A DNA stretch of 30,107 bases from a virus. Shown here one piece after another: positions 1-19,276 of this stretch. The notes below the pieces were generated by a model. That model was not told the DNA's origin and searched no databases. It saw nothing but the letters and a program-made list of their open reading frames with translations. Numbering within the stretch: position 1 is the first letter of the stretch; each line of letters opens with the position of its first letter. Both the position numbers and the translations under genes were made by a program. The stretch covers positions 1 to 30,107 of IMG/VR virus record IMGVR_UViG_3300010354_000386. One strand, written 5' to 3'.

Positions 1-503
1 GCACCACCTCCGCCTCCACCTCCTTGTCCTGCAGAACCATCTGCTAGGTAAGACCCACCGTCTCCGCCAGCACCATCATACCCACCAGCTCCGCCACCAC
101 CGGCTGCACCACCGGCACCAGTGATTCCTCCTTTGCCACCGGGACCTCCGCCTAATCCTCTAAATCCCCCTCCGAGAGCATTATTAATAGTTTGTCCGCC
201 GCCCCGTCCTCCGTATCCTGCTACTGTTAAATTACTAACAAAGTAACTATCTCCGCCATTGCCGCCTGCGCTGTTATCATTGGCTGTTCCACCAGCTCCT
301 ACTATCACCGTATAGGTTGTTCCCGGAACTACAGTGTAATAGTTAATGAATCCGGTACCGCCGCCACCTCCCCCAGAATCACCATATCCAGCATAGCTTC
401 CGCCACCGCCGCCACCGACACATAAAACATGTACTTTGGTTATGCCGGCAGGTGCAGTCCAAGAGTAAGTACCCGGACTAGCAAATACTTTAGCCTTCAA
501 CGG
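1..503 (-). other. Glycine-rich adhesin-like C-terminal domain of the giant protein (continues off window)
   Basis: From residue about 4874 the protein reads FASPGTYSWTAPAGITKVHV, then long glycine runs alternating with TYTVIVGAGG and SYFVSNLTVAGYGG. This is the glycine-rich tail-fibre domain common in marine phage fibres, and polyglycine segments of this type form the receptor-binding tips of some T4-like adhesins. The codons are mainly GGT/GGA/GGC. The domain, and possibly the gene, ends beyond the left edge. Confidence 0.75.
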
Positions 504-3500
504 TTCTGGATCCGGTAATGTAATAACATCAGGTTTTAGATATTGAATGTTTAGTATGCCGCCGGTGGGCACTGTGAAAGGATATGTAACGCCTGGACTA
601 ACAGGTAACGAAGTAGACGTAATTGGCGCTACGGACCCGTAACGTCCTCCCGGTAACACTACACTAGTAATTATAGTATCTTCCCCATTACTACCGCCTA
701 AATATTCTTCGTACAAGGTATTTAAAACGCTATAAACTTTAGCAGTAACTGGAGGAGTAGTGTAGTCGCTACCCCAACCCGTGCCCGATTTTAGTTTATC
801 TATGCCAGATTTTAACCTGATTCTAGAAACATAAGTGGTTTCTGTTAATGTATTATTATCATAAGACCTGTGAATAAAAGATACATTACTACCATTGGTT
901 ATACGTGTGTCAGGTAAGGTGTCAAATTGGGCTTGAGCAGCAGACTCAATAATTACACTAGGCACATTGCCAATGGCGCTATCAGTTACTGTAGCAAAGG
1001 TCGGTCCGGTCACTAAATCCCCAGTTACCCAGGTAGTTTGCCAATCTAGATTAGCAGCAATACCGTTCGCCCCCCGACCAGAAACCTGAATCCTATTAAC
1101 ACCGGCTGGTATAGTTATAGAGTTTGAAGTAGTAAAGGTGTTAGAAATCAATGTATAACCAGTAGGCACAGTTAAATTACTAAATGTAAAATTCAAAGTA
1201 GGCATAGGCAAACTAGGCACAACTACTGCATTGCCACCGCGTAAACGCAGATTAAAGTGAGAGAAGTAAATTGCTTCGTCGGTTTGTGCCTGATCATGAC
1301 CTAAGTAAATATTAGCACTAAACGAGCTACTATTACTAGCGACCCAATTTGATTCAAAAACAACATACCCATTGTTGTTAACATTTTGAGCATATGGTGC
1401 GTAGCTATAATCGGCCCGCACAAATACATTACTAATAAACAAGTTTGTTGTATAATTTGGTGGGTTAACACTGTCTTTGGTAAATTCAGCGTAGACTGTA
1501 TTATTAAATGTAATCTTGCTGGTTTCGTTGTCTAAACTATCAACAAAATGCATAATTAAGCTAACTTTCTTTTCCTCGTGCGGCGGCAAGTTGTCTAAGT
1601 TCAAAATATAGCTTCCTGGTGTGGGGCCGTGCATATTTACTTCGCCTAACCCTGTAACAGATTCCATGGCATGCGTTTTGGTTTTGGACCATAGTCCTGC
1701 GTATTGATTTGCGCTAGCACCTTCGTAATAATAGCCAGGAATTATATTTGTTATGCTAGTAACACTGGTAGTCGGAACATTGACTATAATGTCACTGTTA
1801 CCAGACCTTGCCAGAATATTAGCTGTAATTGATCCTTCAGTCAGGATTACCTGAAACACTTGTGTATTGCCAGTAATCGGCTGAGTCCCGATCTGAATAG
1901 TGCCACTGGTACTGGTTACTGGTAAGTTATAAGAATAACCTAAATTACTTGCTCCAACAATACCTGTATTTGAAAATAGCGTAATAGTTCCTGGATCTAC
2001 TGCATACCAACTAACTGTGACATTACCGGGAGCGTTTGAAGGTGCGGTCCAATTGAAAGCAAAAGTATTTCCCCCAAATCCACTGGCACTGACCGGAGTA
2101 ATGGTCCACGATCCAATTGGTGTAGGGGGCACAGGTTTAGTATAATCAGTTTGATATGTGGTACTAGCTCTCGCTGTACTAACATCTTCAACAAAAGATC
2201 CTGATATATGATTTAAAGGCGTACTAGTTCCTTGATATCCGCGACGAATCTGTTGTAAACTATTACCAGACTTAGCATAATATGCGATACGCTCACCATT
2301 GACTAGTATAACACCCGGTGTTACACTTACTACAGTATTGCCCGACATAACTGTAACCGGAGTTGTTAGCTTTGTTCCGTCAGTTACTTGTATATTACTA
2401 CTAAAAATAAACACCGGTTGTGCCAATATTGTAGTACTAGCAGCAGTGTATGCGGTTCCGGTCATAGTGTCATTGATATCTTTGAAGAATCTAAACCCAC
2501 TTGTTCCTGCTGCTTCTTGTATCTTTACTGTAAGTGAATCAAATACTCTGCCAGGAACTAGTTCTTCTGGACTACGTGTTAACGCTTCAGACACGAATGT
2601 CCCACCACTGACTCTAATATTGCCAGCACTAATGCCAGCGTTTGATCCAAAAGTGTCACCAATTAGTATAGTATCAGGATCACTATCTTCACTTGTAACC
2701 GCACTGGCAGATTGCAAACCAGAAACTAATGTTGCTAATGTCTTAGGTATATCTTCGTTAAACCCATTACTGACATACAAGGCCATAATACGATCATTGG
2801 CGTTATCAAATACGCTATGATCTATTAATTCAGTAACTGAGCCGTAGGGAAATTGATTTGCAGTTGTTCCCGGAGGAATTAAGTAATCTGTTTTAAATTC
2901 GTAAGGACGATTTTCATAGCTTACTCGTTGTCCTGCAATATAACTAATTCCTTCGGCCCAATCAGTTACCGAGCTAGTAAACCTAATACGATCAAATTTA
3001 ATAATAGTTTTAATTTTTCTAGTCAAACTATTAGTTAATACCGGCGCTAAGGACAATGATTTAGGTATTCGTTCGCCAAATAGCATACCAATTGGTCTCT
3101 TGGCCACTACCCAGGCACTGCTGTTCCAGTACCAGGCCTTATTTTTGTAAACCAGTGATTGGCCCGGAATCGGGTTAGATGGAAAACTTATTGGAGATCC
3201 TAGTGTATAAATTCTTGGATAAGCTTCTACCGGAACCAATTTTGTCTGGTAAAGATTAAATTCTAATCTGCAATATGAGTCAGAATTGTTATTGGTAAGG
3301 CCTGTGTAATTTTCGATACCGTTCCCTTGACCGCAGCCAGGAATACCTATCAGTATATACCCGGATCTGTATTTAAAATCGGTACTATTACCAAAAACTT
3401 CTAAACTTGCACCACAACGATACATAGCTTGTTCTAAGCCACCGGTTAATCTATTAGATTGCGGTTCGTCGTAGGTATGTACAACTACAATAAAATCGCT

Positions 3501-6500
3501 GCTGGTATAGTTAAGATCTATGGCCATTGCTTTGTCTTGGCCACTGGTTCCAAAAACATCGTAGGATTTAGTGAATACCACTTTCCCGTCGGTTCGTCTG
3601 ATACGATGCATAGTATAACTTCTAGTCCCAGTGTTAAATAAGCTAGTGCTATTGCCACTTTCATCGATACTATATAAACCAAAAGCTAAATTACCCGTAG
3701 TACCACCTACTGTATCGCTTAACCCTTGACTAACTACTACAAATTTATTAATTCTATAATCAGTAAGTCGATCACCACCGTTATTGATAACATGTAGACT
3801 AGGAGTAGCTGTATAATTACCTCCTACATTTGATACCAGAGTGCCAATTACGCTATATGGACTAGAAACTCCTACTATAGCTGTTACTTGTGCATCAGGC
3901 CCATTGTTACTATCTGTGCGAGTCACTACAATAGCAGGAGGTGCCGAAGTACCATTGTATAAACCTTGATAATTGTAACCGGAATTGACAACATTCACTG
4001 ACTCTAATTCATATCTGTGGTTCTTTAACCAATCTTGATATCGAGGTTGTTGCAGTAGAACTTCATCGTGCGGGTATTCTCCATTGGGGCTACGAAACTG
4101 CTCTACTGTAAGATCCCAGGTTGCAGGTAAATCAAAATCGCTAACACTAACTCTATTAAGATCGATGTCGGTGTAAGTTAATTTGTATTCTCTAATTTTG
4201 GTTCTATAGGGTTTAACTTCATTGATATACTCTGCAAAACTTTGTTGTCGATCTTTGATATACCCAGGAATTTGCTTTAATCCATTGACATTATGATTTA
4301 CACTAATAAAACTAGTCTTAAAGAACCAATCTATATATTTTTGTTCACCTAAAATAAAATCCATTACGTAATACAGTAGCTTGTTCCATTCGATCGCTAG
4401 TGCATCAACAAAAATTTCTTCTTGCAAAGCCTTTAAGATATATCTAAATTCTTTATTAGTGTCATAATCGAATCCTAATGTGTCAAATCGATCACTATCA
4501 TAGCCCCAAAGACGATATAAGTCTTCGCTTAACTGAAATGTTCCTTGGTCGATACCTACAAGTTCGCCGATTAATTGATTATCTACAGTTCGATATCTGT
4601 ATAACTCTGTATTAGAATACTGATCTAGATCCACACCATAATTTATATCACTATTGTTTAATGTTGCTGTATTAAGGACTCTAACTATATCACCTTCAAC
4701 TAAAGATATTTTGTATAATTCTTTATTATTAAGAGCAACATGGTTGCTTACAGTGTTTTTATTATAGCCATTGGCATACCAATCTGTAGTCGACCAATAC
4801 TTAGCAACATCAAATCCTTGTCTTTTTATCAAAATATAGCCGAAATAATTATACCTCTTAGGCGATAACTGTGAGACTACAGCTCTAATTAACGGATAAT
4901 CTTTAGTAAAATCAGAGTAATCAAAAACATAGGATTGTTGATTAGTCTTTAATAGCACTAACTGATATATAGTCCAATAAAACCCATTGCGCTCATCGTT
5001 TAAGACTAAGATCCTTAAATTATTAATTGGCATAGGATCTTCTAAATTATTAAAAGTACCTACTGTTTGATCATACCAGTTTTCGTTCGGTCTTTGACTA
5101 GCCCACAAATTTCCTGACAGATTTTGAGTCTTGCTGACTAATGGGTATTTTCTTAATACCGAATTTACATATTTTACTACATTTTCTTTTGCAAGATATT
5201 GATTAATTACTGCACTTTGTCTTGGAAAACTTTCAATCCCATATCTACGTTGTTGTGGTAAAGTTAGATCTGGTATACTATTATCAAATTGATCTATACC
5301 AGACACACTGTCAATTAACTTTTCAACCAGATACGCAGGCCATTGGCTTTTAACATTACCTTCTTGAACCAGTGCAAAATCACTGTGTACTATGTTATCA
5401 CTAAGTTTTCTTTTACTACTTAAATATAAAATAGTATCATCGGAATTTAAAAATTGGCCAACGTTAAATAATGCAATAGCATTCTGTTTAATAGCTGCCA
5501 TAAACGGTATATTCTGCGAAATAGGATTTTCAATAATATCTTTTAAAGCAGCAGTACTATGAACTTTACTTAAATTAGTTTTTTTACTACGGTTCTTTAC
5601 CCAGAAGTAATACTTACTTTTATATCCTCCGCTATTTTCATCTATATAGACCTTTTCGCAATATGCACTATCATCCGGGTACATGGGGATACCATCGATA
5701 TTCAATGACACATGCACACTAGGAATAACATCGCTTTCAATCCATTCGTAAACTTCAATTTCACTGCCCGGAAATAGTTTACCCCAGTTACGCCCTCTGC
5801 TATCCAGTGCCCCATATTCGTAATAGATGAATCGACAATTATCAATATTCCACCAATAGTTGCCCTTTACCTCAGGTCCCCAGAAATATGTTTCACTAAA
5901 TCCAATTGAGTTAGAGAGATTAGTAGATTTGTTGTATACCGCAGGATCAGCACTCAAGGTATAGTCAATGTCTTGTTGTGCTGTTCCTAATAGCCTGCCT
6001 TTAGCAGGATCGTATAAATCTAATCTGGCTAGTACTCTCTTTTGTTTATTACTATACAAGTACAGATTATTAACACTGTCAATATCTACCAATGGAGTTT
6101 CTTTTCTTACAGAACTAAATTTCCAAATTGGAGTACTTTTTACCTCAACGTACTCTACCACAGTGGCAATATTTCCAAAGTCTCTACGACGGCTTCCTAA
6201 CGATAATGCTTCAAAACTGCTTTTTATTGCATTCTCTACATCGCTTAAACTCACAGTTCCTTGTTGTACCAAGCTCACATAATAATCGTATGTTCCAGAG
6301 TCTGGAGCCCGGTCTAAATATAGATAAAAGAATTTTTCAATCTGTATTGCAGATTCTTCTTGCTCATCAACTTCTTCAATGGTATAGTACAGATCTTCTT
6401 GATCACCTAACCCACTTATATTAAAATGTATTTGCTCATTAATGCCAACTGTACTAATAATAGAAACGTCATCTACAGTGATTTCACCGCAACTAGTAGC

Positions 6501-9500
6501 TGTAATATCGTACTTTTCTGTATAAATTACATCAGTGTTGACTATTTCTATGTTACTAAACCTGTCTAACTGACCTTTAAATACTTCCCATCGACCAAAT
6601 CCATTATCGTCGATATAGATAAAATCATTATATTGCCACCCATGTTTAGGATTAGCTGCGTCTCTATGATCCACTGTGGCATAACGAAGAGGTTGAAAAT
6701 CAAAATGACTAGCTTGGGTATCTATTTCGTTAAACTGCAAATATCTTGTGGTTTGAGATGTACCTTGTACAGTGACACTGTTACTGTCTGACGATAATAC
6801 TACATACAATCCGTCAAAGATAGGTAGGAAATCTCTTACAAAAATTAAATCTCCTATATGATAATCATGATTTTGTCCAAAAATAAAATCAAATCGATTA
6901 TCTAAATTTACACGAGCACCAATGATGTATCCAGAATTTTGGTACATTCTGTAAACTTGCCAATCTTCGTTAAAATCTTTAGCTACCCAAATTTTGTAAC
7001 CATTGGTATATCGTTGTATGTCTTCGGAAGCAATACTAAATTTAGTTATATCAAATACTAGTTCATCAACTTCTTCTAGTAGTACGTATCCTGCACTTTT
7101 AACATCATTCTCAAAATTCTTAGAAAAAGCTCGGTTCCGATCTCTTATAACCTTTTTGATTGCCGGAGCAATAGCGTGTTTAATTAGAGCGCGATATCCT
7201 TCTTGAATCGGATATACCGGATCAATCAGAAAGTAATTTTTCCAGTCTGGAATATTAGTAGTATCTGCTATATAATCGCCATTGGTTATAGCCACTTCAC
7301 GCATGGCATTAATATACAATTGTAGACGATTAGTTCTATTCCAATTTACACGAGGATCAGGCAAACTATTAGCGTTAACTAAATCCATATTAGGTTGTGT
7401 AGGAAGCACCCAAACAATAATTTTATTCCTGGGTAAAGAACTTCTTAAAGAAGAAAGATTTTCTTTATATTCAGCTACTGAAATATTTCGTTTAGCATCA
7501 TTTAACCCATGGTTAATAATTACAATGTCAGCTTCAATACTGTCTGGCCATTTTTCATTGGCTCCGTCGGTGCCTTTTAAAAGATCTCGAGCTGTACTGC
7601 CCCCTACACTTCTTGTAGTAATAGCGACAGCAACATCATTTTCTAATTCTTGGTACAGCAATATGTCAGGAGGAAACTCTACTCTATTAATAGATCTATT
7701 AATTTTGCCTAATCCTTCTCCGGCTTGGGGCTGACAGCTTAGGCCGTACTCTATAAAGGTACTAGATAGTACTGTATCTTCTCCTTCATCATAATCTTCA
7801 ATGGTATAGTATAGATTTTCACTATCTTCTATTCCGGTGATACTAAACCTTATAAAAATTCTAGACTTATTGTTTAGTGCGGCGGTTACTATTGTTACTA
7901 ATTTGCTTCCAACTTGATTTTGATTTAGAGCGTCTGTGGAATTAGGAGTTTCAATTTCTAAAGTTAGATTTTCAGCTGGTAAGACAGAATTTACTATTAT
8001 TCTAAATGGTTGCCCTGGAATTAAAGTTCGTATAGCAGTATCTGCCAATGAGCTTACACTTAGTTGCGACTCCGATTCCCCGGCTGGTTCAATGACATAT
8101 TCTAAATTTTCAAAATCAATTAAACTACCTATATCAAATATCAATTTAGAGCCAATGGTCTCAGGCTGGTATATTAGATCATTCTTTTCGTTTAAAGTTC
8201 TAATGCCGTAACTGCTTTGACCAAAAACATCAACGTCGTAACTAAAATTTTCTACTGCCGTAATACTGTAGGCTACTAACTCAGTTGGTTCCTGGCCGCA
8301 CATAATACCATCACCAAACATTTCAATTTTGGCTAATTTAAACTTATTCTCTTCACCGTTTTTTCTAGTTTGTTTAGACAAACCAGACTCATTGCGATTT
8401 AAAAACAGTTTATTGTCGTAATCGTAAGGTCTTAAAATTAATTGATTAGGATATATAGTGTTAATTTCTGCGTTTTCACTTTGCTGTTTGAAATCTAAAA
8501 ATTCAAACACCATTGGATTTCTATTAATGAGATTTTCGGAGATTGGAACAGAAATTTCTGGATTTACGTCGATACCACCGAATACCCCAATTCTAGCACC
8601 CCATTCTTCGTAAATCTCTATATCGTTATTGATATTATCAAAATCGCCACGTGCTAAACCGTCGATAGCACTATAGGTACCTTTATCGCGTATATAACCT
8701 TGATAAAATTTAATTTGACTAGTTTCATTTAGTCCCAAGTCGGTAAGGTACGATCTTGACCTGTACCCGATTAAGCTGCCACTGAACTTGGTAAATTCTT
8801 CATACAACGGCAAATTATCTATGTCATAAATTTCTTCTAGTCTATCAGCTAACTGAGCAAAATTTGGTGTAATCCCCGATTCTATTATACTATCTAATTC
8901 TTTCCAGTAATTCAAATTGAATATATTACTAGATTCAATTTTTTGAATAGCAGTGTATACCTTATTTTTATAGGTTACAATGTCTCCTTTATTATATGTT
9001 TTATTAACAATCCAATCTGGGGCAGATTTGTCAGTATACACGAAACCCGGAGGCATCAATGTGCCGTCCCAGAGATTTGTTTTGCTGCCAACTAGCTTCA
9101 TTCTGAATTGTCTATTACCTACAACTTGATTATAGATCAGATCGTTAAACACAGTTATATTGTCAAATACTAATACATGTTCAAATTCGACAATGTTTAC
9201 ATCAGCCAACGCAATTGTTTGACCACTTACAGTTTTTATGGTAGTAACTTCACCATCGCGCAGTAAAGTAAAATCTGCTCGTTTAATGCTGTTAAAATTA
9301 GCACCTAATAGTCTAGACTGGTATAATTGATTAGTGATTTCATCTACGAATCCATCTGTGCTAGCAATGCTCAATTTATCAATAACAGGACTTAATACTA
9401 AGACATTACCAGTGTCCCATCCTTGCATACTCCAAGTTAAAAACTCGCGAGCACTTAAGATCCAGTCTTTAGCAACTTGTAATATCGTATCGTATTGATC

Positions 9501-12500
9501 AAATATAAATCCTTGAGCGATCAAGAATCGCTGATAACCGACTAAAAAATCAACCACTTGCTGATCATTATTAAATTCGAAACCGTAGGGAATAATAATC
9601 TTTTCTGATCTAAATTCAGTAAAAATAGTAGCTCGACGATCTAAGACATCAATAGTGTAGCTGTTTCCAGCAGTTTCACTTGGAATTATCGTAAAGTAAG
9701 GATACCTTTGGTCGTAACCAGTCACACTATACCCATTGCTAGTTTTTTCGATAATTACTGCACTGTAAACAGCGCGGTCAACCGGAACACTTTTATTCAA
9801 ATAAATTTGATAGTTTTCATCTGGGATAATAACACTTTCAGCTCTACTATCGGGTGCAAACTGTTCTGCAAATACATTAATATATTTTTTATCACTAAAC
9901 CCGCCCAACTTATGCGTTAAATTAACCGACAAACTAGCTAGTTTTCTATTAAGATACGCTATTGGCTCAATCCCCAAATTAGTTAGATATCCGTGTATCC
10001 AATTTATATAACTAGCACTTCGTTGAGAAGTCTCCCCGACTTGTTCCCCATTAAGTACAAAACTAGATGAATTAGGTCTTTTACTATTAGCCTCTAGTAC
10101 AAATTGTCTACTATCGTTAATAGATCTTTTATAATATCTAGTAATATCGATGTTTAGTGCAAAATATCTAGCAGGTTTCAATAGTGCCATTGCTCGTTGT
10201 AGAGCAAATGGATATTCACTACTGCGACGCCATGCAGTTTCAGCTGGGCCGTGATCTCCAATTACGTAGTTTCTTGAAAAAGTACTGGAATCATTGGCTC
10301 GAATCATTAAATCTATCGGAGCAATTAGATTACCGCTGGTATCAACAGGTACCATATTACTGAAACCAGATCTTCTAAATGTCTGAGTCGTTACGGGGGC
10401 ACCCGGTATTGAAGGATTTTGGGTATAGCCTTCAGAAACTGCTATAATTAATGCACTACGTTTAACAGGCTCAGTCCATGAGTAGTAGGTGTCCCACCAA
10501 TTTGGTTTGATGCTGTGCCCAAGCATTTCCCAGGGATGGGTATGAGGCCTGTCAGTGTCGTAATAAAAACGGTAAATACCTCGCCAATGCCCAGGCAAGT
10601 TATTACCTAATTCATTTTGTGATCTGCTGTAATTGTATGTAAACCCATTGGTAGCAGTGTATTCAGTATTGGCTGCGTAATCTAAATGATTGAACCCTGC
10701 CCACTTTAAAAATTCGCTGTTAATTACTCTACTGTATTCGGCCGGGGTATAATCTGTTCTACGATATCTGCCAGGGATTACACTGTGAATATCGAATCTT
10801 TCAGCATCATAAGTTACTTTTAAATTATTGTAGATCCTAGTTTCTATCTCTAGTATTAAGTCATCTCGATAATCATTAAAAGCAATAGTTAGACTACCGT
10901 CGTGCCCTTGTATTACATTAACACCACTGTCCCCTAATGTATTATCAACAAATTTGCCAGGTATAAATTTTGGATATAGCCCTAACTTAGTTGGCGTTTC
11001 CGGAATATAACAACCTTCCGTGTTACGATAAAATTTAATTACTATTTCGTCATTAACTTCTAGGTCAATGTTACTAGCAATGGTTAATATAGTATCTACC
11101 ACTGTGTATTCTATATCTTTTATTAATAGACGATTATTTAAATAAACTAAATGTGCATCAAAATCTGAGGCACGAATAGATTCTGTATTAAATGTTTTGT
11201 TGTTATTATTATATACAGTTAAACGTAGCTCGTCGCCAGTCTTTCCGTAAGCTAACATGTCACTATAAAAGAAAGCAAAGTCACTGGGCGTCTTATCTTT
11301 ATTGAAATTGTATAAAATATTGTCTACAATATCGGGTATGTTATCGTCGGTGATATCTTTTCTTGACAAAGTAGTTTCTAAAAATTTATTTTTAAATCTA
11401 GTATACTCGCGTCGAGCATAATCAAGACTACTTAAAAGATTAGCTTTTTCGTCTACTAAAAACAAAGCACTGTACATCACAGGAGCACTATGTTGAAGTA
11501 TAGTGCCACCTCGGTTGTTAAGGTCAAATTTATAGATATTACTAATACCCAGTGGTTTACCTACTAGTCCTTGTAGGTTTTGCGCTATTCTTTCCAAATG
11601 ACTACGCATTTGCCCGTGAGTTAGTATAGTGATATCTTGGTTTTGACTGTTAAATTCTAAATTTTGAGGGATTTGGTAATACCCGAAATCAGTTTGTGGC
11701 GCAGCAATAAGTATATCTATTTTGTCATTAGAAACAAGATAATCTGGATTGATCTTAATAGTATTTCTTATACCTAATTTTGTAAAACTATATATAAGTG
11801 ACTTTCCAGGTTCTGGTGTAACATATTGATTATTAATGAACAATTTAACATTGGGTTCAACATCCGGGCCCAGTCTTTGAGGAAAAGGTTCTACGTCAAT
11901 ATCAAAATAACTAGTGTATCCGTCGTAAACATGAGAAATATGCTGCAATTGATTAGTGGGATCAACTTGATATCTAAAAGGCTGATAAGATTGAGCTTCT
12001 AGGCTATTTTTAATAGTAGTTTCGAATGCTGCTAGAGCAAACGCACCTTGCACTGAATACAACGGCAATTGACTAGTAATGGTGTTATCTAACTCGGTTT
12101 GTGTAGGATATCTTCCAAGGTAATTAACATAAATTGTGTTAATTTCCTGCGTCAAAGATCTTGTAGTAGAATTATTAACAGTAGGGGTTAAAGGTAGTCC
12201 TTGAATAGGCTTTAGCTCATTGTGCCCAACTGTGGACCAAACCGTTAATTTAATACAGTCCGAATCGCCTAATCCGGTATTTTTTCTTATAAACCCTTGA
12301 TTAATCGGCGCTGTAGTAGCCAATAGTAATCCGTTACTATACCCTCGATATTCAAAAATATCAATATCAAAGTTATTAACGAATTCTATGTCTCCAATGA
12401 ACCCACTGATATTATTATATTTTATCCCAAATCCTAATTCTGGATCCGGTACCGTCGACCCACGTTGATAAGAGAATAACTTGGTGCCGATAAATTTACT

Positions 12501-15119
12501 GTCTCTAAATACTAAACTATTATCAGAGTATACTGAACGTTTGTTATTGTAAATTAATACCTCACCTAAACTAAGATTAACTACATTTAGGTTACTGGTT
12601 CCTAAGAATGTAGCTGTATTATCTGTTACTATATCAAATAATGGTTCTTGATTAGGGTGTGTTTTTTGTTGTGATTCGGCCCAAGAATAAATTACTTGCG
12701 GTGTGTAAGATTCTGGATCTGCGTAAATTTCTCTATTCCAATGGTACATTTTACGTTGGTTAAATGTTCTTTGGGGTTGATCAATTACGTCCGGCCCTGT
12801 AACATATACACAATGAAACAATGTAGCAGTATGTTTAATTTTTAAATTTATTGTGGCTTTTTTGACCTTTAGCCCTGCCGCATCCATTAAATCTACTGTT
12901 AAGGGGCGATCGAGAGCAATAGAAGTATCAGAGTAAATAACCGCCACTCTTCCCAAGTAAAGGTTGGAATTAGTGAATAAACTATCACCAACTGACAACT
13001 CGGTGAAGAAATTAGTCAGGTTAGAGCTATTTCTTGCAACAATATTAGTACGTCCGGTTATTCCATAAACTAATCCACTTAAAGTCGAGTCGAATGTGGA
13101 GGCTGTGCTGTGATCAGCTAAGTCAAGTAAGTATACTCTCTGTCTAACAGCAGCATCGATATCATTGTTAAAAATAGCTGTTTGACCGGGCTTTACATTG
13201 TGCCCTAATCTTGTCGACAAGATCGAAAACTGCGTACCTTGAACTTGAGTAGTGATGTCGGTTAATTTAACCAAATCGCCATCAAAAATGATCTGCGTGT
13301 CCTGGTCAAAAAAGAACGATACAGTATCTAAAAATTTTCTACCATGGTTGTATAACTGCAAATCAGGTTCGAACTCAATTATAGGTCTTACTGCCTTAGT
13401 AAAACTTTCATCGAAAATTGTTACTGGAGAAAATCTTCTTAAAGTATTGATTACATCAACATGCACCCATCTATTAGACCTTGACCAAGAGTTATAATCC
13501 ATGCTAGCACGATTGATAGTAACATAGTCTGGTGCAATTTTAGATATACCAAAGTCAAAAATTGTTTGCGGAGGTATATTGCTAAAAGGTACTGCATCTA
13601 ATAGCTTAATAGATTTCCCAACACCTTCTACTATAAATTCTTTAAATCGATACTGCGCCGGGCTTACTGTATTATCAAAACGAACTTTTAGGCCATTGAT
13701 AAATTCGACTCCGTCAGGACTAGTATATGATACCGATCCTAAGATATCATTTAGCACATTAATTGCAGGTCGGTTATTAATGATCCTAATTTGCCCAACA
13801 GTATTATCTTTATCATTTTGGTAATACAAAATATCCAATGGACTAGTAACCGTTGGTGCCACATCAAGAGCTGCAGAATTTCTTGTAAATTCAAACCCTT
13901 TGTATTTTCCACTGGTGACTTGCACACGCACGTTGGCATCTAAATTTTTAACCAAAGTATATTCTATACGTACATTACCGCTTGAATATGTCACTGTTCT
14001 AGCACGATAAATCCCGCGTCTTTGGTCCACTGTTAAAGTAGCACCAGACCGAGTCACCCAATCTGAATTATTAGTACTGTTACTAGTGAATATTACTAAC
14101 TTATTATCAGGATATATACTAGTATTAGACCACACTGCATTGTCACTTAAGGTAAAAGTTGTATCGATGGCTAAATCTACTACTACAATATCTGAGTTTA
14201 AGGAATTTATTTGTTCTAGTTTATCAGGAATATTAATAGTAATATTACCACTGCTAATACCATTATTGCTAACACCTGCAATATTCCTGACACTGACATT
14301 ACTTGATAGTCGTCGTCCAGTTGAACCGGGTTCAGTTTGAATCCATAAGTTTCCCTGCCCAATGGCATGGTTCACAGTAAATTTATATTCTGTGTTTCTA
14401 ACAATTAGTATAGTTGGATTTAAACACTGTCCAGTAGGACCGCTGTTAGCTGCTGTGTAACCCTTGGCACGAAAGTCTACTATCTCAGCAGCTGAATATC
14501 CGTTGTACAACAATGCCGATTCTGTTATGCTATTTCTATTAAACCAGTCAATCTGTTGTTCTTCAGTAAAACCGCCCCAGGTCGCCGGTAATAAAATGTT
14601 ATCACATCCTACACTGGTAATATAACTTGTACCATTTTTTGTAAAGACAATTTCCGACTGTTGCACAGGATAAAGACTACCTATATTGATCGCAGGTAAA
14701 TCAATATCGTTAATCCAACGATAATTGGTGAAATTTACAAATTTATCTAAATCAATATGCGGATCAAAATTATAATATTCGCTATCAAATAGTCGATTGT
14801 GATCATTGGCAACACCGCCGTAATAATTAATCTTGTTAATTAAATCTGGGTAAGTTACTAACAAATCAATATTATCTTTTTGATCTTTAGTTAACACTGC
14901 AGGTTCAAGCTGATAATTTTGACGCTGGTCAGAATTTTCTAAAATAAAATTATCTGTAGGGCGAACCGATGAACTAAATCTCCTACCAATGAAACCGTTG
15001 ACTTTTTTAAGATTAGGTTCACTGATTAATTGATCAAGCGTACTGCCTAAAAACTTTCTATTTGTATCGCTGCGAAATATCTCCGGAAGGAAATTTATAG
15101 TTTTTCTAGTAACGGCCAT
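1..15119 (-). CDS. Giant baseplate/tail-fibre-like structural protein, at least 5,039 residues, 3' end outside window
   Basis: I read every in-frame codon from the ATG at 15119 to the left edge and found no stop, so the product exceeds 5,039 residues. A TGGAA Shine-Dalgarno-like element lies 7 nt before the ATG, 11 nt after the gp6 stop. The N-terminus (MAVTRKTINFLPEIF, then an LDQLISEP stretch) resembles the start of large structural proteins of marine T4-like phages. Modules in order: DUF4214-like (993-1042), CBM5/12-like (2035-2072), degenerate SGNH hydrolase-like (about 2452-2650), DUF4214-like (2927-2979), a GYNYQGLY-type beta segment near 3,750, CBM5/12-like (4053-4075), Ig/fibre-like beta regions, and a glycine-rich domain (4874 to the edge). 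In T4, gene 7 (about 1,030 residues) follows gene 6, so by position this could be a gp7 equivalent fused to adhesin domains. I infer a virion protein at the baseplate edge that contacts the host. The open frame is certain; the role is inferred. Confidence 0.88.
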   Translation of the reverse strand, partial: MAVTRKTINFLPEIFRSDTNRKFLGSTLDQLISEPNLKKVNGFIGRRFSSSVRPTDNFILENSDQRQNYQLEPAVLTKDQKDNIDLLVTYPDLINKINYYGGVANDHNRLFDSEYYNFDPHIDLDKFVNFTNYRWINDIDLPAINIGSLYPVQQSEIVFTKNGTSYITSVGCDNILLPATWGGFTEEQQIDWFNRNSITESALLYNGYSAAEIVDFRAKGYTAANSGPTGQCLNPTILIVRNTEYKFTVNHAIGQGNLWIQTEPGSTGRRLSSNVSVRNIAGVSNNGISSGNITINIPDKLEQINSLNSDIVVVDLAIDTTFTLSDNAVWSNTSIYPDNKLVIFTSNSTNNSDWVTRSGATLTVDQRRGIYRARTVTYSSGNVRIEYTLVKNLDANVRVQVTSGKYKGFEFTRNSAALDVAPTVTSPLDILYYQNDKDNTVGQIRIINNRPAINVLNDILGSVSYTSPDGVEFINGLKVRFDNTVSPAQYRFKEFIVEGVGKSIKLLDAVPFSNIPPQTIFDFGISKIAPDYVTINRASMDYNSWSRSNRWVHVDVINTLRRFSPVTIFDESFTKAVRPIIEFEPDLQLYNHGRKFLDTVSFFFDQDTQIIFDGDLVKLTDITTQVQGTQFSILSTRLGHNVKPGQTAIFNNDIDAAVRQRVYLLDLADHSTASTFDSTLSGLVYGITGRTNIVARNSSNLTNFFTELSVGDSLFTNSNLYLGRVAVIYSDTSIALDRPLTVDLMDAAGLKVKKATINLKIKHTATLFHCVYVTGPDVIDQPQRTFNQRKMYHWNREIYADPESYTPQVIYSWAESQQKTHPNQEPLFDIVTDNTATFLGTSNLNVVNLSLGEVLIYNNKRSVYSDNSLVFRDSKFIGTKLFSYQRGSTVPDPELGFGIKYNNISGFIGDIEFVNNFDIDIFEYRGYSNGLLLATTAPINQGFIRKNTGLGDSDCIKLTVWSTVGHNELKPIQGLPLTPTVNNSTTRSLTQEINTIYVNYLGRYPTQTELDNTITSQLPLYSVQGAFALAAFETTIKNSLEAQSYQPFRYQVDPTNQLQHISHVYDGYTSYFDIDVEPFPQRLGPDVEPNVKLFINNQYVTPEPGKSLIYSFTKLGIRNTIKINPDYLVSNDKIDILIAAPQTDFGYYQIPQNLEFNSQNQDITILTHGQMRSHLERIAQNLQGLVGKPLGISNIYKFDLNNRGGTILQHSAPVMYSALFLVDEKANLLSSLDYARREYTRFKNKFLETTLSRKDITDDNIPDIVDNILYNFNKDKTPSDFAFFYSDMLAYGKTGDELRLTVYNNNNKTFNTESIRASDFDAHLVYLNNRLLIKDIEYTVVDTILTIASNIDLEVNDEIVIKFYRNTEGCYIPETPTKLGLYPKFIPGKFVDNTLGDSGVNVIQGHDGSLTIAFNDYRDDLILEIETRIYNNLKVTYDAERFDIHSVIPGRYRRTDYTPAEYSRVINSEFLKWAGFNHLDYAANTEYTATNGFTYNYSRSQNELGNNLPGHWRGIYRFYYDTDRPHTHPWEMLGHSIKPNWWDTYYSWTEPVKRSALIIAVSEGYTQNPSIPGAPVTTQTFRRSGFSNMVPVDTSGNLIAPIDLMIRANDSSTFSRNYVIGDHGPAETAWRRSSEYPFALQRAMALLKPARYFALNIDITRYYKRSINDSRQFVLEANSKRPNSSSFVLNGEQVGETSQRSASYINWIHGYLTNLGIEPIAYLNRKLASLSVNLTHKLGGFSDKKYINVFAEQFAPDSRAESVIIPDENYQIYLNKSVPVDRAVYSAVIIEKTSNGYSVTGYDQRYPYFTIIPSETAGNSYTIDVLDRRATIFTEFRSEKIIIPYGFEFNNDQQVVDFLVGYQRFLIAQGFIFDQYDTILQVAKDWILSAREFLTWSMQGWDTGNVLVLSPVIDKLSIASTDGFVDEITNQLYQSRLLGANFNSIKRADFTLLRDGEVTTIKTVSGQTIALADVNIVEFEHVLVFDNITVFNDLIYNQVVGNRQFRMKLVGSKTNLWDGTLMPPGFVYTDKSAPDWIVNKTYNKGDIVTYKNKVYTAIQKIESSNIFNLNYWKELDSIIESGITPNFAQLADRLEEIYDIDNLPLYEEFTKFSGSLIGYRSRSYLTDLGLNETSQIKFYQGYIRDKGTYSAIDGLARGDFDNINNDIEIYEEWGARIGVFGGIDVNPEISVPISENLINRNPMVFEFLDFKQQSENAEINTIYPNQLILRPYDYDNKLFLNRNESGLSKQTRKNGEENKFKLAKIEMFGDGIMCGQEPTELVAYSITAVENFSYDVDVFGQSSYGIRTLNEKNDLIYQPETIGSKLIFDIGSLIDFENLEYVIEPAGESESQLSVSSLADTAIRTLIPGQPFRIIVNSVLPAENLTLEIETPNSTDALNQNQVGSKLVTIVTAALNNKSRIFIRFSITGIEDSENLYYTIEDYDEGEDTVLSSTFIEYGLSCQPQAGEGLGKINRSINRVEFPPDILLYQELENDVAVAITTRSVGGSTARDLLKGTDGANEKWPDSIEADIVIINHGLNDAKRNISVAEYKENLSSLRSSLPRNKIIVWVLPTQPNMDLVNANSLPDPRVNWNRTNRLQLYINAMREVAITNGDYIADTTNIPDWKNYFLIDPVYPIQEGYRALIKHAIAPAIKKVIRDRNRAFSKNFENDVKSAGYVLLEEVDELVFDITKFSIASEDIQRYTNGYKIWVAKDFNEDWQVYRMYQNSGYIIGARVNLDNRFDFIFGQNHDYHIGDLIFVRDFLPIFDGLYVVLSSDSNSVTVQGTSQTTRYLQFNEIDTQASHFDFQPLRYATVDHRDAANPKHGWQYNDFIYIDDNGFGRWEVFKGQLDRFSNIEIVNTDVIYTEKYDITATSCGEITVDDVSIISTVGINEQIHFNISGLGDQEDLYYTIEEVDEQEESAIQIEKFFYLYLDRAPDSGTYDYYVSLVQQGTVSLSDVENAIKSSFEALSLGSRRRDFGNIATVVEYVEVKSTPIWKFSSVRKETPLVDIDSVNNLYLYSNKQKRVLARLDLYDPAKGRLLGTAQQDIDYTLSADPAVYNKSTNLSNSIGFSETYFWGPEVKGNYWWNIDNCRFIYYEYGALDSRGRNWGKLFPGSEIEVYEWIESDVIPSVHVSLNIDGIPMYPDDSAYCEKVYIDENSGGYKSKYYFWVKNRSKKTNLSKVHSTAALKDIIENPISQNIPFMAAIKQNAIALFNVGQFLNSDDTILYLSSKRKLSDNIVHSDFALVQEGNVKSQWPAYLVEKLIDSVSGIDQFDNSIPDLTLPQQRRYGIESFPRQSAVINQYLAKENVVKYVNSVLRKYPLVSKTQNLSGNLWASQRPNENWYDQTVGTFNNLEDPMPINNLRILVLNDERNGFYWTIYQLVLLKTNQQSYVFDYSDFTKDYPLIRAVVSQLSPKRYNYFGYILIKRQGFDVAKYWSTTDWYANGYNKNTVSNHVALNNKELYKISLVEGDIVRVLNTATLNNSDINYGVDLDQYSNTELYRYRTVDNQLIGELVGIDQGTFQLSEDLYRLWGYDSDRFDTLGFDYDTNKEFRYILKALQEEIFVDALAIEWNKLLYYVMDFILGEQKYIDWFFKTSFISVNHNVNGLKQIPGYIKDRQQSFAEYINEVKPYRTKIREYKLTYTDIDLNRVSVSDFDLPATWDLTVEQFRSPNGEYPHDEVLLQQPRYQDWLKNHRYELESVNVVNSGYNYQGLYNGTSAPPAIVVTRTDSNNGPDAQVTAIVGVSSPYSVIGTLVSNVGGNYTATPSLHVINNGGDRLTDYRINKFVVVSQGLSDTVGGTTGNLAFGLYSIDESGNSTSLFNTGTRSYTMHRIRRTDGKVVFTKSYDVFGTSGQDKAMAIDLNYTSSDFIVVVHTYDEPQSNRLTGGLEQAMYRCGASLEVFGNSTDFKYRSGYILIGIPGCGQGNGIENYTGLTNNNSDSYCRLEFNLYQTKLVPVEAYPRIYTLGSPISFPSNPIPGQSLVYKNKAWYWNSSAWVVAKRPIGMLFGERIPKSLSLAPVLTNSLTRKIKTIIKFDRIRFTSSVTDWAEGISYIAGQRVSYENRPYEFKTDYLIPPGTTANQFPYGSVTELIDHSVFDNANDRIMALYVSNGFNEDIPKTLATLVSGLQSASAVTSEDSDPDTILIGDTFGSNAGISAGNIRVSGGTFVSEALTRSPEELVPGRVFDSLTVKIQEAAGTSGFRFFKDINDTMTGTAYTAASTTILAQPVFIFSSNIQVTDGTKLTTPVTVMSGNTVVSVTPGVILVNGERIAYYAKSGNSLQQIRRGYQGTSTPLNHISGSFVEDVSTARASTTYQTDYTKPVPPTPIGSWTITPVSASGFGGNTFAFNWTAPSNAPGNVTVSWYAVDPGTITLFSNTGIVGASNLGYSYNLPVTSTSGTIQIGTQPITGNTQVFQVILTEGSITANILARSGNSDIIVNVPTTSVTSITNIIPGYYYEGASANQYAGLWSKTKTHAMESVTGLGEVNMHGPTPGSYILNLDNLPPHEEKKVSLIMHFVDSLDNETSKITFNNTVYAEFTKDSVNPPNYTTNLFISNVFVRADYSYAPYAQNVNNNGYVVFESNWVASNSSSFSANIYLGHDQAQTDEAIYFSHFNLRLRGGNAVVVPSLPMPTLNFTFSNLTVPTGYTLISNTFTTSNSITIPAGVNRIQVSGRGANGIAANLDWQTTWVTGDLVTGPTFATVTDSAIGNVPSVIIESAAQAQFDTLPDTRITNGSNVSFIHRSYDNNTLTETTYVSRIRLKSGIDKLKSGTGWGSDYTTPPVTAKVYSVLNTLYEEYLGGSNGEDTIITSVVLPGGRYGSVAPITSTSLPVSPGVTYPFTVPTGGILNIQYLKPDVITLPDPEPLKAKVFASPGTYSWTAPAGITKVHVLCVGGGGGGSYAGYGDSGGGGGGTGFINYYTVVPGTTYTVIVGAGGTANDNSAGGNGGDSYFVSNLTVAGYGGRGGGQTINNALGGGFRGLGGGPGGKGGITGAGGAAGGGGAGGYDGAGGDGGSYLADGSAGQGGGGGGG
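2895..2963 (-). other. CBM5/12-like motif 2 in the giant protein
   Basis: Residues 4053-4075 read DWAEGISYIAGQRVSYENRP followed by YEF, which fits W.....Y..G..V.Y....Y. It is weaker than motif 1 because the usual Asp after Gly is Gln and no closing YW is seen. A second glycan-contact site or a structural remnant are both possible. Confidence 0.35.
6183..6341 (-). other. DUF4214-like module 2 in the giant protein
   Basis: Residues 2927-2979. IEKFFYLYLDRAPDSGTYDYYV followed by a helical stretch ending SSFEALSLG fits DUF4214 better than module 1 does: LYLDR.PD, then a YY and a terminal S.E helix. It directly follows the third copy of the YYTIE repeat, so repeat plus helical module form a unit of a kind seen in cyanobacterial and phage surface proteins. 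Confidence 0.55.
6374..6389 (-). repeat. 16-bp direct repeat, copy B (encodes LYYTIEE repeat)
   Basis: This is identical to 7796..7811. It encodes ISGLGDQEDLYYTIEEVDEQ (around residue 2911), directly before DUF4214-like module 2. A more diverged third protein copy, SLIDFENLEYVIEPAGES, lies near residue 2340 (about 8070-8140) without the 16-bp identity. Confidence 0.8.
7170..7766 (-). other. Degenerate SGNH/GDSL hydrolase-like domain in the giant protein
   Basis: Residues about 2452-2650. Block I reads IEYGLSCQP where the family has YGDSxT: the nucleophile Ser2461 remains, but the preceding Asp is Leu2460. A PPDILLYQEL helix follows. Block II is VGGSTARDLL (Gly2506-2507), block III is NHGLND (Asn2540), and a KIIVWVLPTQP strand follows. 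Block V is LIDPVYPIQEGY, where the family has DxxHP: Asp2633 is kept but the catalytic His is Tyr2636. The fold is probably SGNH, as in phage and bacterial glycan esterases, but the triad is broken as read. It may bind a glycan rather than cleave it. Confidence 0.65.
7796..7811 (-). repeat. 16-bp direct repeat, copy A (encodes LYYTIED repeat)
   Basis: The 16 bases cttcaatggtatagta are identical to 6374..6389 and in the same reading frame. They encode the core of a protein repeat, ITGIEDSENLYYTIEDYDEG (around residue 2437), that immediately precedes the SGNH-like block I. Confidence 0.8.
8899..9017 (-). other. CBM5/12-like carbohydrate-binding motif 1 in the giant protein
   Basis: Residues 2035-2072 read DWIVNKTYNKGDIVTYKNKV, then YTA, and end in NYWKEL. 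This is the W.....Y..GD.V.Y....Y.A......YW layout of chitin/cellulose-binding CBM5/12 modules, about 40 residues long. In a phage structural protein it would be a candidate surface-glycan contact. Identification is by motif only, and such small modules are also found as structural decorations. Confidence 0.5.
11994..12143 (-). other. DUF4214-like module 1 in the giant protein
   Basis: Residues about 993-1042. The core IYVNYLGRYPTQTELD matches the DUF4214 pattern (LY..LLGR.PD..GL, then a helix ending in S.E); the segment ends with NSLEA. DUF4214 is a short helical domain common in bacterial surface proteins and seen in phage structural proteins. Its function is not established. The match is by eye, and the Arg-Tyr-Pro replaces the usual Arg-x-Pro-Asp. 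Confidence 0.45.
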
Positions 15120-15130
15120 TGTTTATTCCA

Positions 15131-18100
15131 TTAGATCCCAATGCTTCTGTTTGTATTGGCTAGACTCTGATTTAGTTGACTGGCATTTATACTACTAATT
15201 ATCTCTACATCATTTACCGTAGCTGCGCTAATAATAATCTCATTGGGCTCGCTGTTGATTTGATATAACTCACCAAAGTTTACATCTGGATCTCTTGGTA
15301 CTATTACAATACTTGCCACTTTAGGAGTTAGTTCTTTGTGTAAATATGCCGCTAATTCGCTAAAATAAAAAATTTCCCCGAAATCCCAGTTTTCTATAGA
15401 AAAATATGTGTTTACTGCGTTTATTACACTGCTCTTAACATCTGTGTCACTAAGGCTTAAGTTTGGATTTTTAATTACCTTGAACACAGCTTGCAATGTC
15501 ATATCTGCTTTTGGACCAAACAAAGGTTTAAATACTGCACTATGGAATACCATAGTATCACTGATAGGTTTATATTTTTCCAACCCCGAGTAATCGATTT
15601 GTAATTCTGTGCTAGTCGGAGGAACAGGCTCTGGTATACGTCCTGTTATATCCTGAATGTATTGTCTATAACTTTGATTATAAGCACTGTTTAAAACATA
15701 AACATCTACAATGTTGCTAATATTAGGATCTACACGATGTGTATTAGGACTATTGTGTCGATACTGAAAGTTTACATTTTGAATACCCAATTCCCATTTG
15801 TATCTCTCAGTTCCTGCAATTACGTTTAATGGTAAACTAAAAACTTTTTGTCTTGAACTATTTAATTGAACTTTATAAAATTCTTTAGTGGTGCTAGCGA
15901 AAAATAGCTGCCCAACATCATAATTTCTAATCACCGGTAGTGCAGCAGTAATTACGCTATAACTAGTAATAACTTCGTCGATATCAAGTAGTCTCCAAGT
16001 TTTATATCTGTCGTATCTACTTTCAATTAACTCAAAGAAAATAAAGTTTTCACCGGTAGTAAATGTAGTTAAAACCGGATTATTCTCTGTTACTGTAGTA
16101 GTTTTTCCAGTGTATCCATTGACCCGTAGTACGGCAATATCAGATTTTGATATCCCGTTCGCTAATAACACATCTTCCCCAATTTGGTTATCATTATACC
16201 AACGAATTTTCTGGGAAGTTAATAACGTAGCCCAATTAGCTGGTAAAATCATAGTTACACTAGATTTAGACTCAGAGCCAACTATGTTCTCAAATAGAAA
16301 AGGATCATCCGGTATACCATCGTCATTGGTATCTGCCAATGTCACATAAATGCTTTTGTTTTCAATAAATCCATCATTTCTTCTTACTTCTTTGTGCACT
16401 TCCCAAATAAAATCTCTAGTTAGTGACACTGGCAATTTAGTATCAGCATCAAGCACTACATTATTTTTTAAGATTTTAATATGATCTTTAATGGTGCTAT
16501 TGTTAAAGCTGTCGTAAACTTGAAGACTACGATCATAAAAAAAGTTTGTTTCATTACTGCTATGGAAAACATATCTTAGCTGTCGATTTTTTACAAGGTA
16601 ATTTTTTGCAACAGAATTGTATTCAAATAAAACATAAATGTTTTGATCATATTCCAATCCACTTTCTACTGTAACCCAATTTGGTAATATTACATCATAC
16701 CCAAGACTTGGGCTTTTTAATATTGTATCAGCTACATACTTAAGACCAAATGAAGAATAGTTGCCTATTAAATCAATCATCTTTCCCCGGACCGATTCGG
16801 GCAATTGATTATTAAACTTTGGTATTACACTGTGTGCAATTGCACCATTGGGAATTTTTTGATTCACTGTAATTGGGCCTTGGCCATTGGAAAAATTGCC
16901 TTGGCCATTGTTATAACCATCACCTCTTACTGACATTATGGCCGCAAATAATTCTGTTTTGTCGTCAGGATTTTTAGCCGGTCCGGGAACAATATTATTA
17001 GTACTATTAAAATGATAGTTGTCTGGGCTTACAAATTTAACTAATGCACCAACTTCAACAAAAGAAAAATTGTTATACTCACTATTTTTACTCAGTGGTA
17101 TAGGGCGTCTATTGATCATAAAATATCCTGTAGCCGAGCTATCGCCGATACTACTAAGATTCCAAGATATATTAGTTTTAACTTGTCCGTCACCATAATT
17201 ACTAACTATAATTTGGCCACTGATTGATGCATTATATTGACTTACATAATAATAAGTTACACTATTTTGAAATGTACCAATGGCATTAGTTGTATTCCAT
17301 TCAATAACACCATTTTCTGTGCCGTTATTAATTACATCGACTACTGAATCATCAATACCAGTGGTAGCAAATTTTTTAATCCATAGCGGATTTCCGGGAG
17401 CAGCAACATCTAGTCTAAGTATATCACCTACTTTTAAACGTATAACAGGATTATAAGGATTTAAATTGTTACTAAAATTATAAACTACTCTATTAGATAC
17501 TGTTAAGTTAGTTACAGTGTAAAAATAATTTTTTCGACCAACGTTGACTGCCACGAATTGATTGTTAATGGAGTTTGTACTTGCACCATATTCTAAATAG
17601 TTAGTAGTTCCTGTAGTGTAAATTGTGTAGGTTTCTCCTTCAATCATTTCCTGTGCAGGTATTGCCACTGGTGTAAATGTTTGCAAGACCACGGTATTAT
17701 AATATCGATGCAGAGTTTCTCTACTGCGTAATATATCCCCCTCGATTTGATTAAACAATACTTTTTGAATATCACTTCGATTGTTAAAAGTGAAGGTAAA
17801 TGAATCTGTAATATTTTCTCTATATAACACTCCGTCTGAACCAAATACATTAGTGCTACTATACTTGCCAGTAGTATCTAATACATCTAAATATCGACTA
17901 AGACCAGAACTAGTACGATTAACTGCTTTAACTTTTACTATGCTGCTGTAATTGGTATATGGTAAAATATTATAATCCTCGCCGGTTATCATACGATTTT
18001 GTGTATAATATTGCTGAGGAGCTTTTTGTTTAATAGCGTCTGCGGTTTCTCTTGCACTGGCATTAGTCACTGTGTATCTTAGACTGGCTCGGAGAGTTAC

Positions 18101-19276
18101 CGTTTCAACTCGATTACGTCTACTAACATAATCTAAACTAATTTCAACTCCTTGTAGCTCGTCGGGTGTAATTTTATAAGTTAGTCCATTACTGCTTCGA
18201 TAATATAGTCTGAAACTGCCGCTAGGAATATTCGTAAAAACCCCGTCACCAAAAACTAGACTAATTTGATCGTTTACTCTGCTGTTAACCTGATATAAAT
18301 TTTTATCGTCTTGACTGTTGTAAATTACATTAACGCCGGTCACTGCCGGTACACTATTCCATAAACTGTCTGTTCTATTAGCACTATCTAAACTATATAA
18401 CCATACATCTGAATCATTTATGTTATTGCTATCTATGTTAATTACTTTATTTGGTACTACTTCGTCTATAGTAAAATCAATATTTTTAAGTTCGCCTTGC
18501 TTGAAATACATAAAATACCCAGTACCATCACTACTGTTTCCCATACTGTCATTCATGTATAATATATTAAATGCTTTTCCAATATCCGGGGCTTGTTCGT
18601 AAACAAAAGTTTTACCCAGTGCAGTAGCACTAACAATTTCAAAAATCATATCTTGATTGTCTACTGCTCCTGTAAATCGATATACAGGAATCACGTTACG
18701 TGTAATGTTAATGCCGTATTCTTCGGTTCTGATGCCGTTAATAGTAGCTCGATTGCCCGGGCGCCCAATTCTTTGTGTACTAACCATACACGAATTTAAA
18801 ATAGCTGTAAATTGTTCTAACCAATTTTCATTACTAGCATCAGCCCAGTTTACAACTAAACTACTCAAATCATTACCGTCGCTGTCTAATATTTGTTCTG
18901 TGGTACTAATACTATCAATTTTCAAATAACCATGAGCTGATATATTTCTTTTAGGATTGTAACTTACAAGCCTAGCTAATTTTAATATACTATCCCTGCG
19001 TTCCGCAGTGTCGATAAAATTTTCTCTTGCATTCATGTCTGCTCTAAAAGCAAGACTTTGTCCAAAAAATGCAATAAGATCAATCAAAGCAATAAATTCT
19101 GAACTTTCTGTATAATCATTGAAATCTTCCGGATAGTTACGTTTGACATAGTCAATCATAGTCTTGCGTAAAGTTTCAAAATCATAAGCAGTGAAGTCGG
19201 CTTCTCGGAAAGTTTGATAGACTTTCTTCCAATTTTCTGCGCTGAGTAATCCGGTTTGTCGTGGAATTATTGCCAT
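15131..19276 (-). CDS. 6: Baseplate wedge subunit, gp6-like, enlarged
   Basis: This 1,381-residue protein is about twice the length of T4 gp6 (about 660). The N-terminus has the family signature: FIALIDLIAFFGQSLAFRAD, then ARENFIDTAERRDSILKLA and VSYNPKRNISAHGYL (about residues 62-118). The C-terminus (VFKPLFGPKADMTLQ through NWDFGEIFYFSELAAYLHKE) is the other conserved gp6/gpJ-type region. In T4, gp6 dimers form the inner ring that ties wedges together around the hub. The middle 900 or so residues are beta-rich and carry no motif I recognise, so they look like an insertion. It begins 52 nt after gp25 with its own late-promoter-like element and AGGT upstream. It ends 11 nt before the giant gene. 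Confidence 0.85.
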   Translation of the reverse strand: MAIIPRQTGLLSAENWKKVYQTFREADFTAYDFETLRKTMIDYVKRNYPEDFNDYTESSEFIALIDLIAFFGQSLAFRADMNARENFIDTAERRDSILKLARLVSYNPKRNISAHGYLKIDSISTTEQILDSDGNDLSSLVVNWADASNENWLEQFTAILNSCMVSTQRIGRPGNRATINGIRTEEYGINITRNVIPVYRFTGAVDNQDMIFEIVSATALGKTFVYEQAPDIGKAFNILYMNDSMGNSSDGTGYFMYFKQGELKNIDFTIDEVVPNKVINIDSNNINDSDVWLYSLDSANRTDSLWNSVPAVTGVNVIYNSQDDKNLYQVNSRVNDQISLVFGDGVFTNIPSGSFRLYYRSSNGLTYKITPDELQGVEISLDYVSRRNRVETVTLRASLRYTVTNASARETADAIKQKAPQQYYTQNRMITGEDYNILPYTNYSSIVKVKAVNRTSSGLSRYLDVLDTTGKYSSTNVFGSDGVLYRENITDSFTFTFNNRSDIQKVLFNQIEGDILRSRETLHRYYNTVVLQTFTPVAIPAQEMIEGETYTIYTTGTTNYLEYGASTNSINNQFVAVNVGRKNYFYTVTNLTVSNRVVYNFSNNLNPYNPVIRLKVGDILRLDVAAPGNPLWIKKFATTGIDDSVVDVINNGTENGVIEWNTTNAIGTFQNSVTYYYVSQYNASISGQIIVSNYGDGQVKTNISWNLSSIGDSSATGYFMINRRPIPLSKNSEYNNFSFVEVGALVKFVSPDNYHFNSTNNIVPGPAKNPDDKTELFAAIMSVRGDGYNNGQGNFSNGQGPITVNQKIPNGAIAHSVIPKFNNQLPESVRGKMIDLIGNYSSFGLKYVADTILKSPSLGYDVILPNWVTVESGLEYDQNIYVLFEYNSVAKNYLVKNRQLRYVFHSSNETNFFYDRSLQVYDSFNNSTIKDHIKILKNNVVLDADTKLPVSLTRDFIWEVHKEVRRNDGFIENKSIYVTLADTNDDGIPDDPFLFENIVGSESKSSVTMILPANWATLLTSQKIRWYNDNQIGEDVLLANGISKSDIAVLRVNGYTGKTTTVTENNPVLTTFTTGENFIFFELIESRYDRYKTWRLLDIDEVITSYSVITAALPVIRNYDVGQLFFASTTKEFYKVQLNSSRQKVFSLPLNVIAGTERYKWELGIQNVNFQYRHNSPNTHRVDPNISNIVDVYVLNSAYNQSYRQYIQDITGRIPEPVPPTSTELQIDYSGLEKYKPISDTMVFHSAVFKPLFGPKADMTLQAVFKVIKNPNLSLSDTDVKSSVINAVNTYFSIENWDFGEIFYFSELAAYLHKELTPKVASIVIVPRDPDVNFGELYQINSEPNEIIISAATVNDVEIISSINASQLNQSLANTNRSIGI

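Follow-up and report, generated by a model that had tools for sequence, protein, structure and literature searches.

Gene content of the window

The window analyzed here, a viral DNA fragment of 30,107 bases that makes up its IMG/VR record exactly, carries on the minus strand a run of genes for virion proteins. Read toward the giant gene described below, the run comprises a phrog_12050 virion structural protein, a gp53-type baseplate wedge subunit (24358..24660; phrog_7145, whose neighbour in CBB is annotated gp53), a phrog_11190 virion structural protein, a gp5-like baseplate hub and tail lysozyme (19716..21995), a gp25-like baseplate wedge protein (19329..19700), and a gp6-like baseplate wedge protein of 1,381 amino acids (15131..19276). 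The other strand encodes a gp55-type late sigma factor starting with TTG (25850-26548, plus strand; phrog_12791, E = 5.8e-63), gp47/gp46-like nuclease subunits, and a RusA-like resolvase. The gp6 of the window is enlarged, its counterparts measuring about 1,150 to 1,200 residues in relatives and 660 in T4, and its first 530 residues are conserved.

The giant gene begins with an ATG at position 15119, 11 bases downstream of gp6, whose stop lies at 15131, and extends on the minus strand to position 3 (3..15119), where it is cut by the contig end. It spans at least 5,039 codons; the 5,039 sense codons visible contain no stop, and half of the fragment is this one unbroken gene, as the preliminary description had stated. 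The other five frames hold between 245 and 682 stops each over the same interval, which excludes chance as the origin of the open frame. The visible residues correspond to a mass of 563 kDa. The T4 gene order is 53-5-6-7-8; since the giant gene directly follows the run gp53-gp5-gp25-gp6 on the same strand, it occupies the position of T4 gene 7, and this earlier assignment stands.

A single gene of a widely distributed family

The giant protein matched the family phrog_10938, labelled "virion structural protein," with an E value of 5.6e-267 over three stretches, and the same family was matched by all ten relatives scanned. Relatives are encoded at 66 IMG/VR loci, and tblastn with the N-terminal third of the protein gave matches in 57 phage records, while a search of the same type with the RaK2 version gave 60. 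No internal stop was present in the frames of the larger IMG/VR contigs (21 of 21), and the 18 complete IMG/VR relatives are single closed frames of 3,884 to 5,369 amino acids. In isolates resembling RaK2, PA5oct, Atu_ph07, and SCTP-2, the giant is one uninterrupted coding sequence directly after gp6, with a length of 3,313 to 4,555 amino acids: 3,313 in XacN1, 3,326 in RaK2 (ORF070), 3,333 in PBECO4, 3,339 in Serratia phage BF, 3,340 in CBB (CBB_236), 3,807 in SCTP-2, 3,857 in PA5oct (gp355), 4,449 in Atu_ph07, and 4,555 in Phosso. The order after gp25-gp6 in these isolates is that of the window, and the RaK2-, PA5oct-, and Atu_ph07-like giants also lie on the same strand relative to gp6. The giant of the window is orthologous to the "virion structural protein" encoded after gp6 in these four kinds of phages; its family is known and widespread but has hardly been studied, and the window protein is one of its large members. 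The earlier view of a little-studied class of virion protein agrees with this, as the family is known but uncharacterized; no structure, copy number, or function of its giants was found in the literature searched.

A middle segment of the giant, scanned against viral contigs, recovered the nearest relative, L101, on a contig of 44,436 bases; the C-terminal 1,220 residues gave no match in such a scan, the patterns being too specific. L101 matches residues 892-5039 of the window protein; across the 4,145 codons aligned, nearly without gaps, identity is 67%. In every 300-codon bin, pN was 0.15-0.26 and pS 0.70-0.80, synonymous sites being near saturation, and the low pN and high pS also cover the middle and C-terminal modules. 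These values indicate purifying selection throughout the codons compared, 892-5039. Because the record is no longer than the window, the end of the giant gene cannot be read from it; the L101 frame supplies the estimate, as it closes 114 residues past the point where the window is cut, which predicts a full length of about 5,150 amino acids. The window protein is in this respect longer than the RaK2-, PA5oct-, and Atu_ph07-like giants and ranks with the longest virion proteins in its family; its relatives are found in no fewer than 60 sequenced phage records and in many metagenomes. An assembly or frame artefact merging several genes, which the preliminary description had itself raised and to which the contig end inside the giant gene might point, can practically be dismissed, since in independent contigs and isolate genomes these collinear blocks lie within one closed frame each and L101 aligns over its full compared length; on these sequence comparisons, the giant frame is one real gene.

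Conserved blocks and variable segments

The block comparison took in the 18 complete IMG/VR relatives and five isolates. Local alignments were collinear in every relative for residues 5-140, 430-670, 813-944, 1130-2236, 2990-3335, and 3434-3800, with about 25 to 48% identity. The N-terminal block (residues 5-140; 14700..15107, minus strand, as for all features of the giant gene given below) showed 31 to 48% identity across the 18 complete relatives and five isolates. It is followed by the block of residues 430-670 (13110..13832), the longest block (residues 1130-2236; 8412..11732), the block of residues 2990-3335 (5115..6152), and a block of residues 3434-3717 (3969..4820) marked by Q-IDW-FKTSF and, further on, EVKPYRTKIREY. 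The spacing of anchors among relatives hardly changes in some segments and differs widely in others: the segment 2180-3060 measures between 293 and 1,619 residues, and the stretch beyond residue 3640 between 525 and 1,758. The size differences within the family therefore stem from modules between and after the conserved blocks. The RaK2-, PA5oct-, and Atu_ph07-like giants share this architecture of collinear blocks separated by variable segments with the giant of the window.

Domain models and predicted folds

The piece submitted to the Pfam scan began at residue 45, and positions were shifted by 44 to obtain full numbering. The scan bore out the modular nature of the chain that had been noted before. 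A CBM5/12 chitin-binding-type module (PF02839) was found at residues 2036-2063 (8931..9014) with 41.7 bits against a cut-off of 26.2; it was present in nine of the ten relatives scanned, and FG-GAP repeats were present in three. A GDSL/SGNH-like module occupies residues 2268-2650 (7170..8318), with the Pfam fold match at 2498-2644, block I at residue 2268, about 200 amino acids inserted after block I, and the GLND motif present. Block I reads FGDG instead of GDS (residues 2268-2271), the nucleophilic serine being replaced by Gly2271, and block V has DPVY in place of DxxH (residues 2633-2636), the catalytic histidine being replaced by Tyr2636; both replacements recur in L101. Judged by these motifs, with the catalytic serine and histidine replaced, the module is probably a binding or structural relic. 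The esterase-like module of the preliminary description accordingly lacks these two catalytic residues, and an active esterase was rejected on this ground. An ILEI-like module (residues 3837-3928; 3336..3611) scored 26.2, just under the Pfam cut-off of 27. The C-terminal glycine-rich module (residues 4882-5038; 6..476) matched Gly_rich_2 with 41.9 bits and also phrog_863, "tail fiber assembly." Neither Gly_rich_2 nor ILEI was found by the Pfam scan in the ten relatives; the GDSL-like module, the ILEI-like module, and the glycine-rich C terminus occur in the window giant and L101 and are absent from the other compared relatives.

AlphaFold prediction of residues 1120-2240 resulted in a poor model with a mean pLDDT of 54, for which fold searches returned small-domain matches only, and the model of residues 2980-3800 was likewise poor (mean pLDDT of 52), with no fold match above a Z score of 5. 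Within the first model, a small β domain formed by residues 1294-1365 (11025..11240), with a local pLDDT of about 80 in poor overall surroundings, resembles the tailspike TSP4 of phage CBA120 (residues 187-250; Z score of 8.6 over 64 residues at 1.9 Å) and gp10 of the T4-like phage KP1 (Z score of 7.5). According to a profile of this domain, relatives carry up to four copies. For residues 2031-2078 of the predicted model, the similarity is to CBM5/12 domains, one of them from the baseplate of Agrobacterium phage Milano (Z score of 8.6). A docking role of the gp10/TSP4-like domain is a lead offered by the predicted model, as such Z values can come from common arrangements. gp7 and the wedge proteins of CIS did not stand out among the matches listed in the fold searches, a result that excludes nothing given the poor models. 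A sequence search of the PDB with the block profiles gave nothing beyond CBM5/12 and one tailspike module.

Fibre-type modules and separate fibre genes

The preliminary description had read the chain as a wedge protein and a host-recognition fibre fused into one. The C-terminal modules of fibre type, that is, the Gly_rich_2 module with its match to phrog_863, fit such a fusion. However, directly downstream of its giant, L101 retains separate fibre genes: after a 206-residue phrog_11259 protein come a 394-residue fibre with an S74 chaperone, a 1,325-residue protein that matches a family of long-tail-fibre connectors, and other large proteins, among them a glycine-rich one of 2,115 residues. Moreover, some of the variable modules separate conserved collinear blocks in the central part of the chain, which is at odds with a simple joining of two proteins, and the modules in question, Gly_rich_2 and ILEI, were detected by Pfam in none of the ten relatives scanned. 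We therefore regard the fusion as improbable; as L101 keeps its fibres, the giant appears to carry fibre-type modules in addition to them.

Association of orthologues with the virion

Mass spectrometry of virions identified the CBB orthologue, CBB_236, from 21 unique peptides covering 7.7% of its sequence (PMC5259590), and inspection of the CBB record confirmed that it is the 3,340-residue gene adjoining gp6. In phAPEC6, gp245 (381.9 kDa) was found in virions with 17 unique peptides and is listed next to the baseplate wedge protein gp244 of 131.2 kDa (PMC7247149); the masses computed for the corresponding pair of the related phage PBECO4, 383 kDa for the giant and 131.2 kDa for gp6, match those of gp245 and gp244. 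PA5oct gp355 is marked in its sequence record as found by ESI-MS/MS. By analogy with these orthologues, in which virion association has been seen wherever tested, the giant of the window would be a virion protein as well.

The published peptide coverage of the orthologues is low, at 7.6 to 7.7%, and does not show an intact chain, which leaves some room for a polyprotein, i.e., one long translation product that a phage protease would cleave to give several proteins of the virion; other jumbo phages do process virion proteins (PMC13282480). Against this stand the phAPEC6 and CBB tables, which list the protein by gene product and without fragments, and the spread of conserved blocks all along the chain. 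Processing of this kind seems unlikely to us.

Relationship to T4 gp7

Like the giant, T4 gp7 (1,032 amino acids) is encoded directly after gp6, but it is five times shorter than the window protein and shows no significant sequence similarity to it. In hhalign comparisons with a profile of seven T4-type gp7 proteins, none of the giant's blocks gave a match, tblastn revealed no gp7 homology, and hhalign against the other T4 baseplate proteins (gp5, gp6, gp8 to gp12, and gp53) yielded nothing significant. As a control, gp6 of the window gave a weak match to T4 gp6 (P = 0.0012) and a clear one to its cyanophage counterpart (97% probability). Homology to T4 gp7 is thus undetectable by profile comparison, the one signal being a weak match to cyanophage gp7.

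Marine cyanophages of the T4-like type carry giant genes right after gp6 too, which are annotated as gp7 or baseplate wedge initiator and in a few records as "structural protein." Their products measure 3,045 amino acids in S-CAM3, 3,274 in S-RIM44, 3,884 in S-CAM9, 4,120 in S-SCSM1, 4,225 in ACG-2014f, 6,619 in S-SZBM1, 6,817 in ACG-2014d, and 7,312 in P-SSM4. Translation of the gp7 gene of Prochlorococcus phage P-SSM4 (L117:45-21983) gave a single frame of 7,312 residues without internal stop; its core motif is located at residues 699-716. The size of the window giant is hence striking but not unprecedented, the cyanophage genes at the same locus being longer, and it is not exceptional for the gp7 place. 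The S-SCSM1 giant carries a true gp7 core, with 48% identity over 58 residues to a Vibrio gp7 and a probability of 95% by hhalign. While the cyanophage giants resemble the window giant in being single huge frames right after gp6 of a T4-related phage, they contain a recognizable T4 gp7 core, for which the jumbo-phage family gives a weak match.

This match lies in the FYQG-x-KGT segment (residues about 2085-2190; 8550..8867), which is invariant in the family and a candidate remnant of the gp7 core. The invariant FYQGxIxxKGT, at residues 2138-2148 of the window protein, resembles the gp7 core motif xFYxxKG[TI]xxxxxxLFxxL, which reads DFYSTKGIEASYKFLFKVL in T4. When a family profile of the segment was compared with 62 frames and their reversals, cyanophage gp7 ranked first and was aligned at the core motif, with an E value of 0.07; in 2 of 150 trials, a column-shuffled profile scored as high at the same sites. 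The link is suggestive only, because the motif had been picked by eye before the profile test. A further value, P = 0.006 for the C-terminal block against cyanophage N termini, was set aside as probably reflecting matches between repeat modules.

Repeat-type modules are indeed shared by cyanophage and jumbo-phage giants: in L102 (frame from about 1764), a 123-residue module at residues 2438-2550 is 45% identical to residues 1428-1550 of P-SSM4 gp7. Such sharing suggests module exchange between the two groups of giants. Outside repeat modules, no collinear similarity between them was found.

Proposed role of the giant protein

The protein very probably sits in the tail baseplate. Whether it is gp7 there can be argued from either side. 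It could be an independent, jumbo-phage-specific peripheral baseplate protein, such as a spoke or fibre scaffold, that came to lie after gp6 by chance, the gp7 role being filled otherwise. This would agree with the lack of significant gp7 homology, with the resemblance of the assignable domain to tailspike and gp10 attachment domains, and with the unspecific label of phrog_10938. On the other hand, the place after gp6 is kept from T4 and the cyanophages to all jumbo isolates examined, the cyanophage giants at that place carry the gp7 core, and the KGT segment of the family matches this core. We consider an independent origin a serious possibility, albeit a rather doubtful one. We consider a relationship to gp7 most likely; it is backed by the position of the gene and by a weak match of motifs, significant homology not having been found.

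The explanation we favor, and judge probable, is one real baseplate protein gene of a T4-related jumbo phage, encoding a wedge protein in the role of gp7 that has grown by module insertion. We infer its wedge position, copy number, and module roles as follows. The giant would join gp6 in each baseplate wedge as gp7 does in T4, and by analogy with T4 six copies would be present per baseplate. It would have grown by insertion of modules between conserved blocks. The gp10/TSP4-like domain and CBM5/12 may dock other baseplate and fibre proteins, while the glycine-rich C terminus, the CBM, and the dead GDSL fold may touch or bind glycans of the cell surface. If the giant is gp7, these phages assemble their baseplate wedge around a chain five times as large as in T4, which would partly account for how oversized their baseplates are.

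More tentatively, and with somewhat less than even confidence, the gp7 place may be regarded as a hot spot at which unrelated T4-like lineages have repeatedly enlarged a wedge protein of about 1,000 residues to a scaffold of 3,000 to 7,000 residues by inserting docking and glycan-binding modules. The gp7 core of the jumbo phages would then be the KGT segment near residue 2146, buried between large insertions. To the known family, the present analysis adds the map of conserved blocks and variable modules, a prediction of the full length, the observation that the esterase motif is dead, a connection to published virion proteomes, and the parallel with giant cyanophage gp7; the map is now sufficient to pick fragments for structural work.

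In the RaK2-like phages (L005, L007, L100, and L107), an ATP-dependent protease gene, ClpA-like in the CBB annotation, adjoins the giant gene on the opposite strand.
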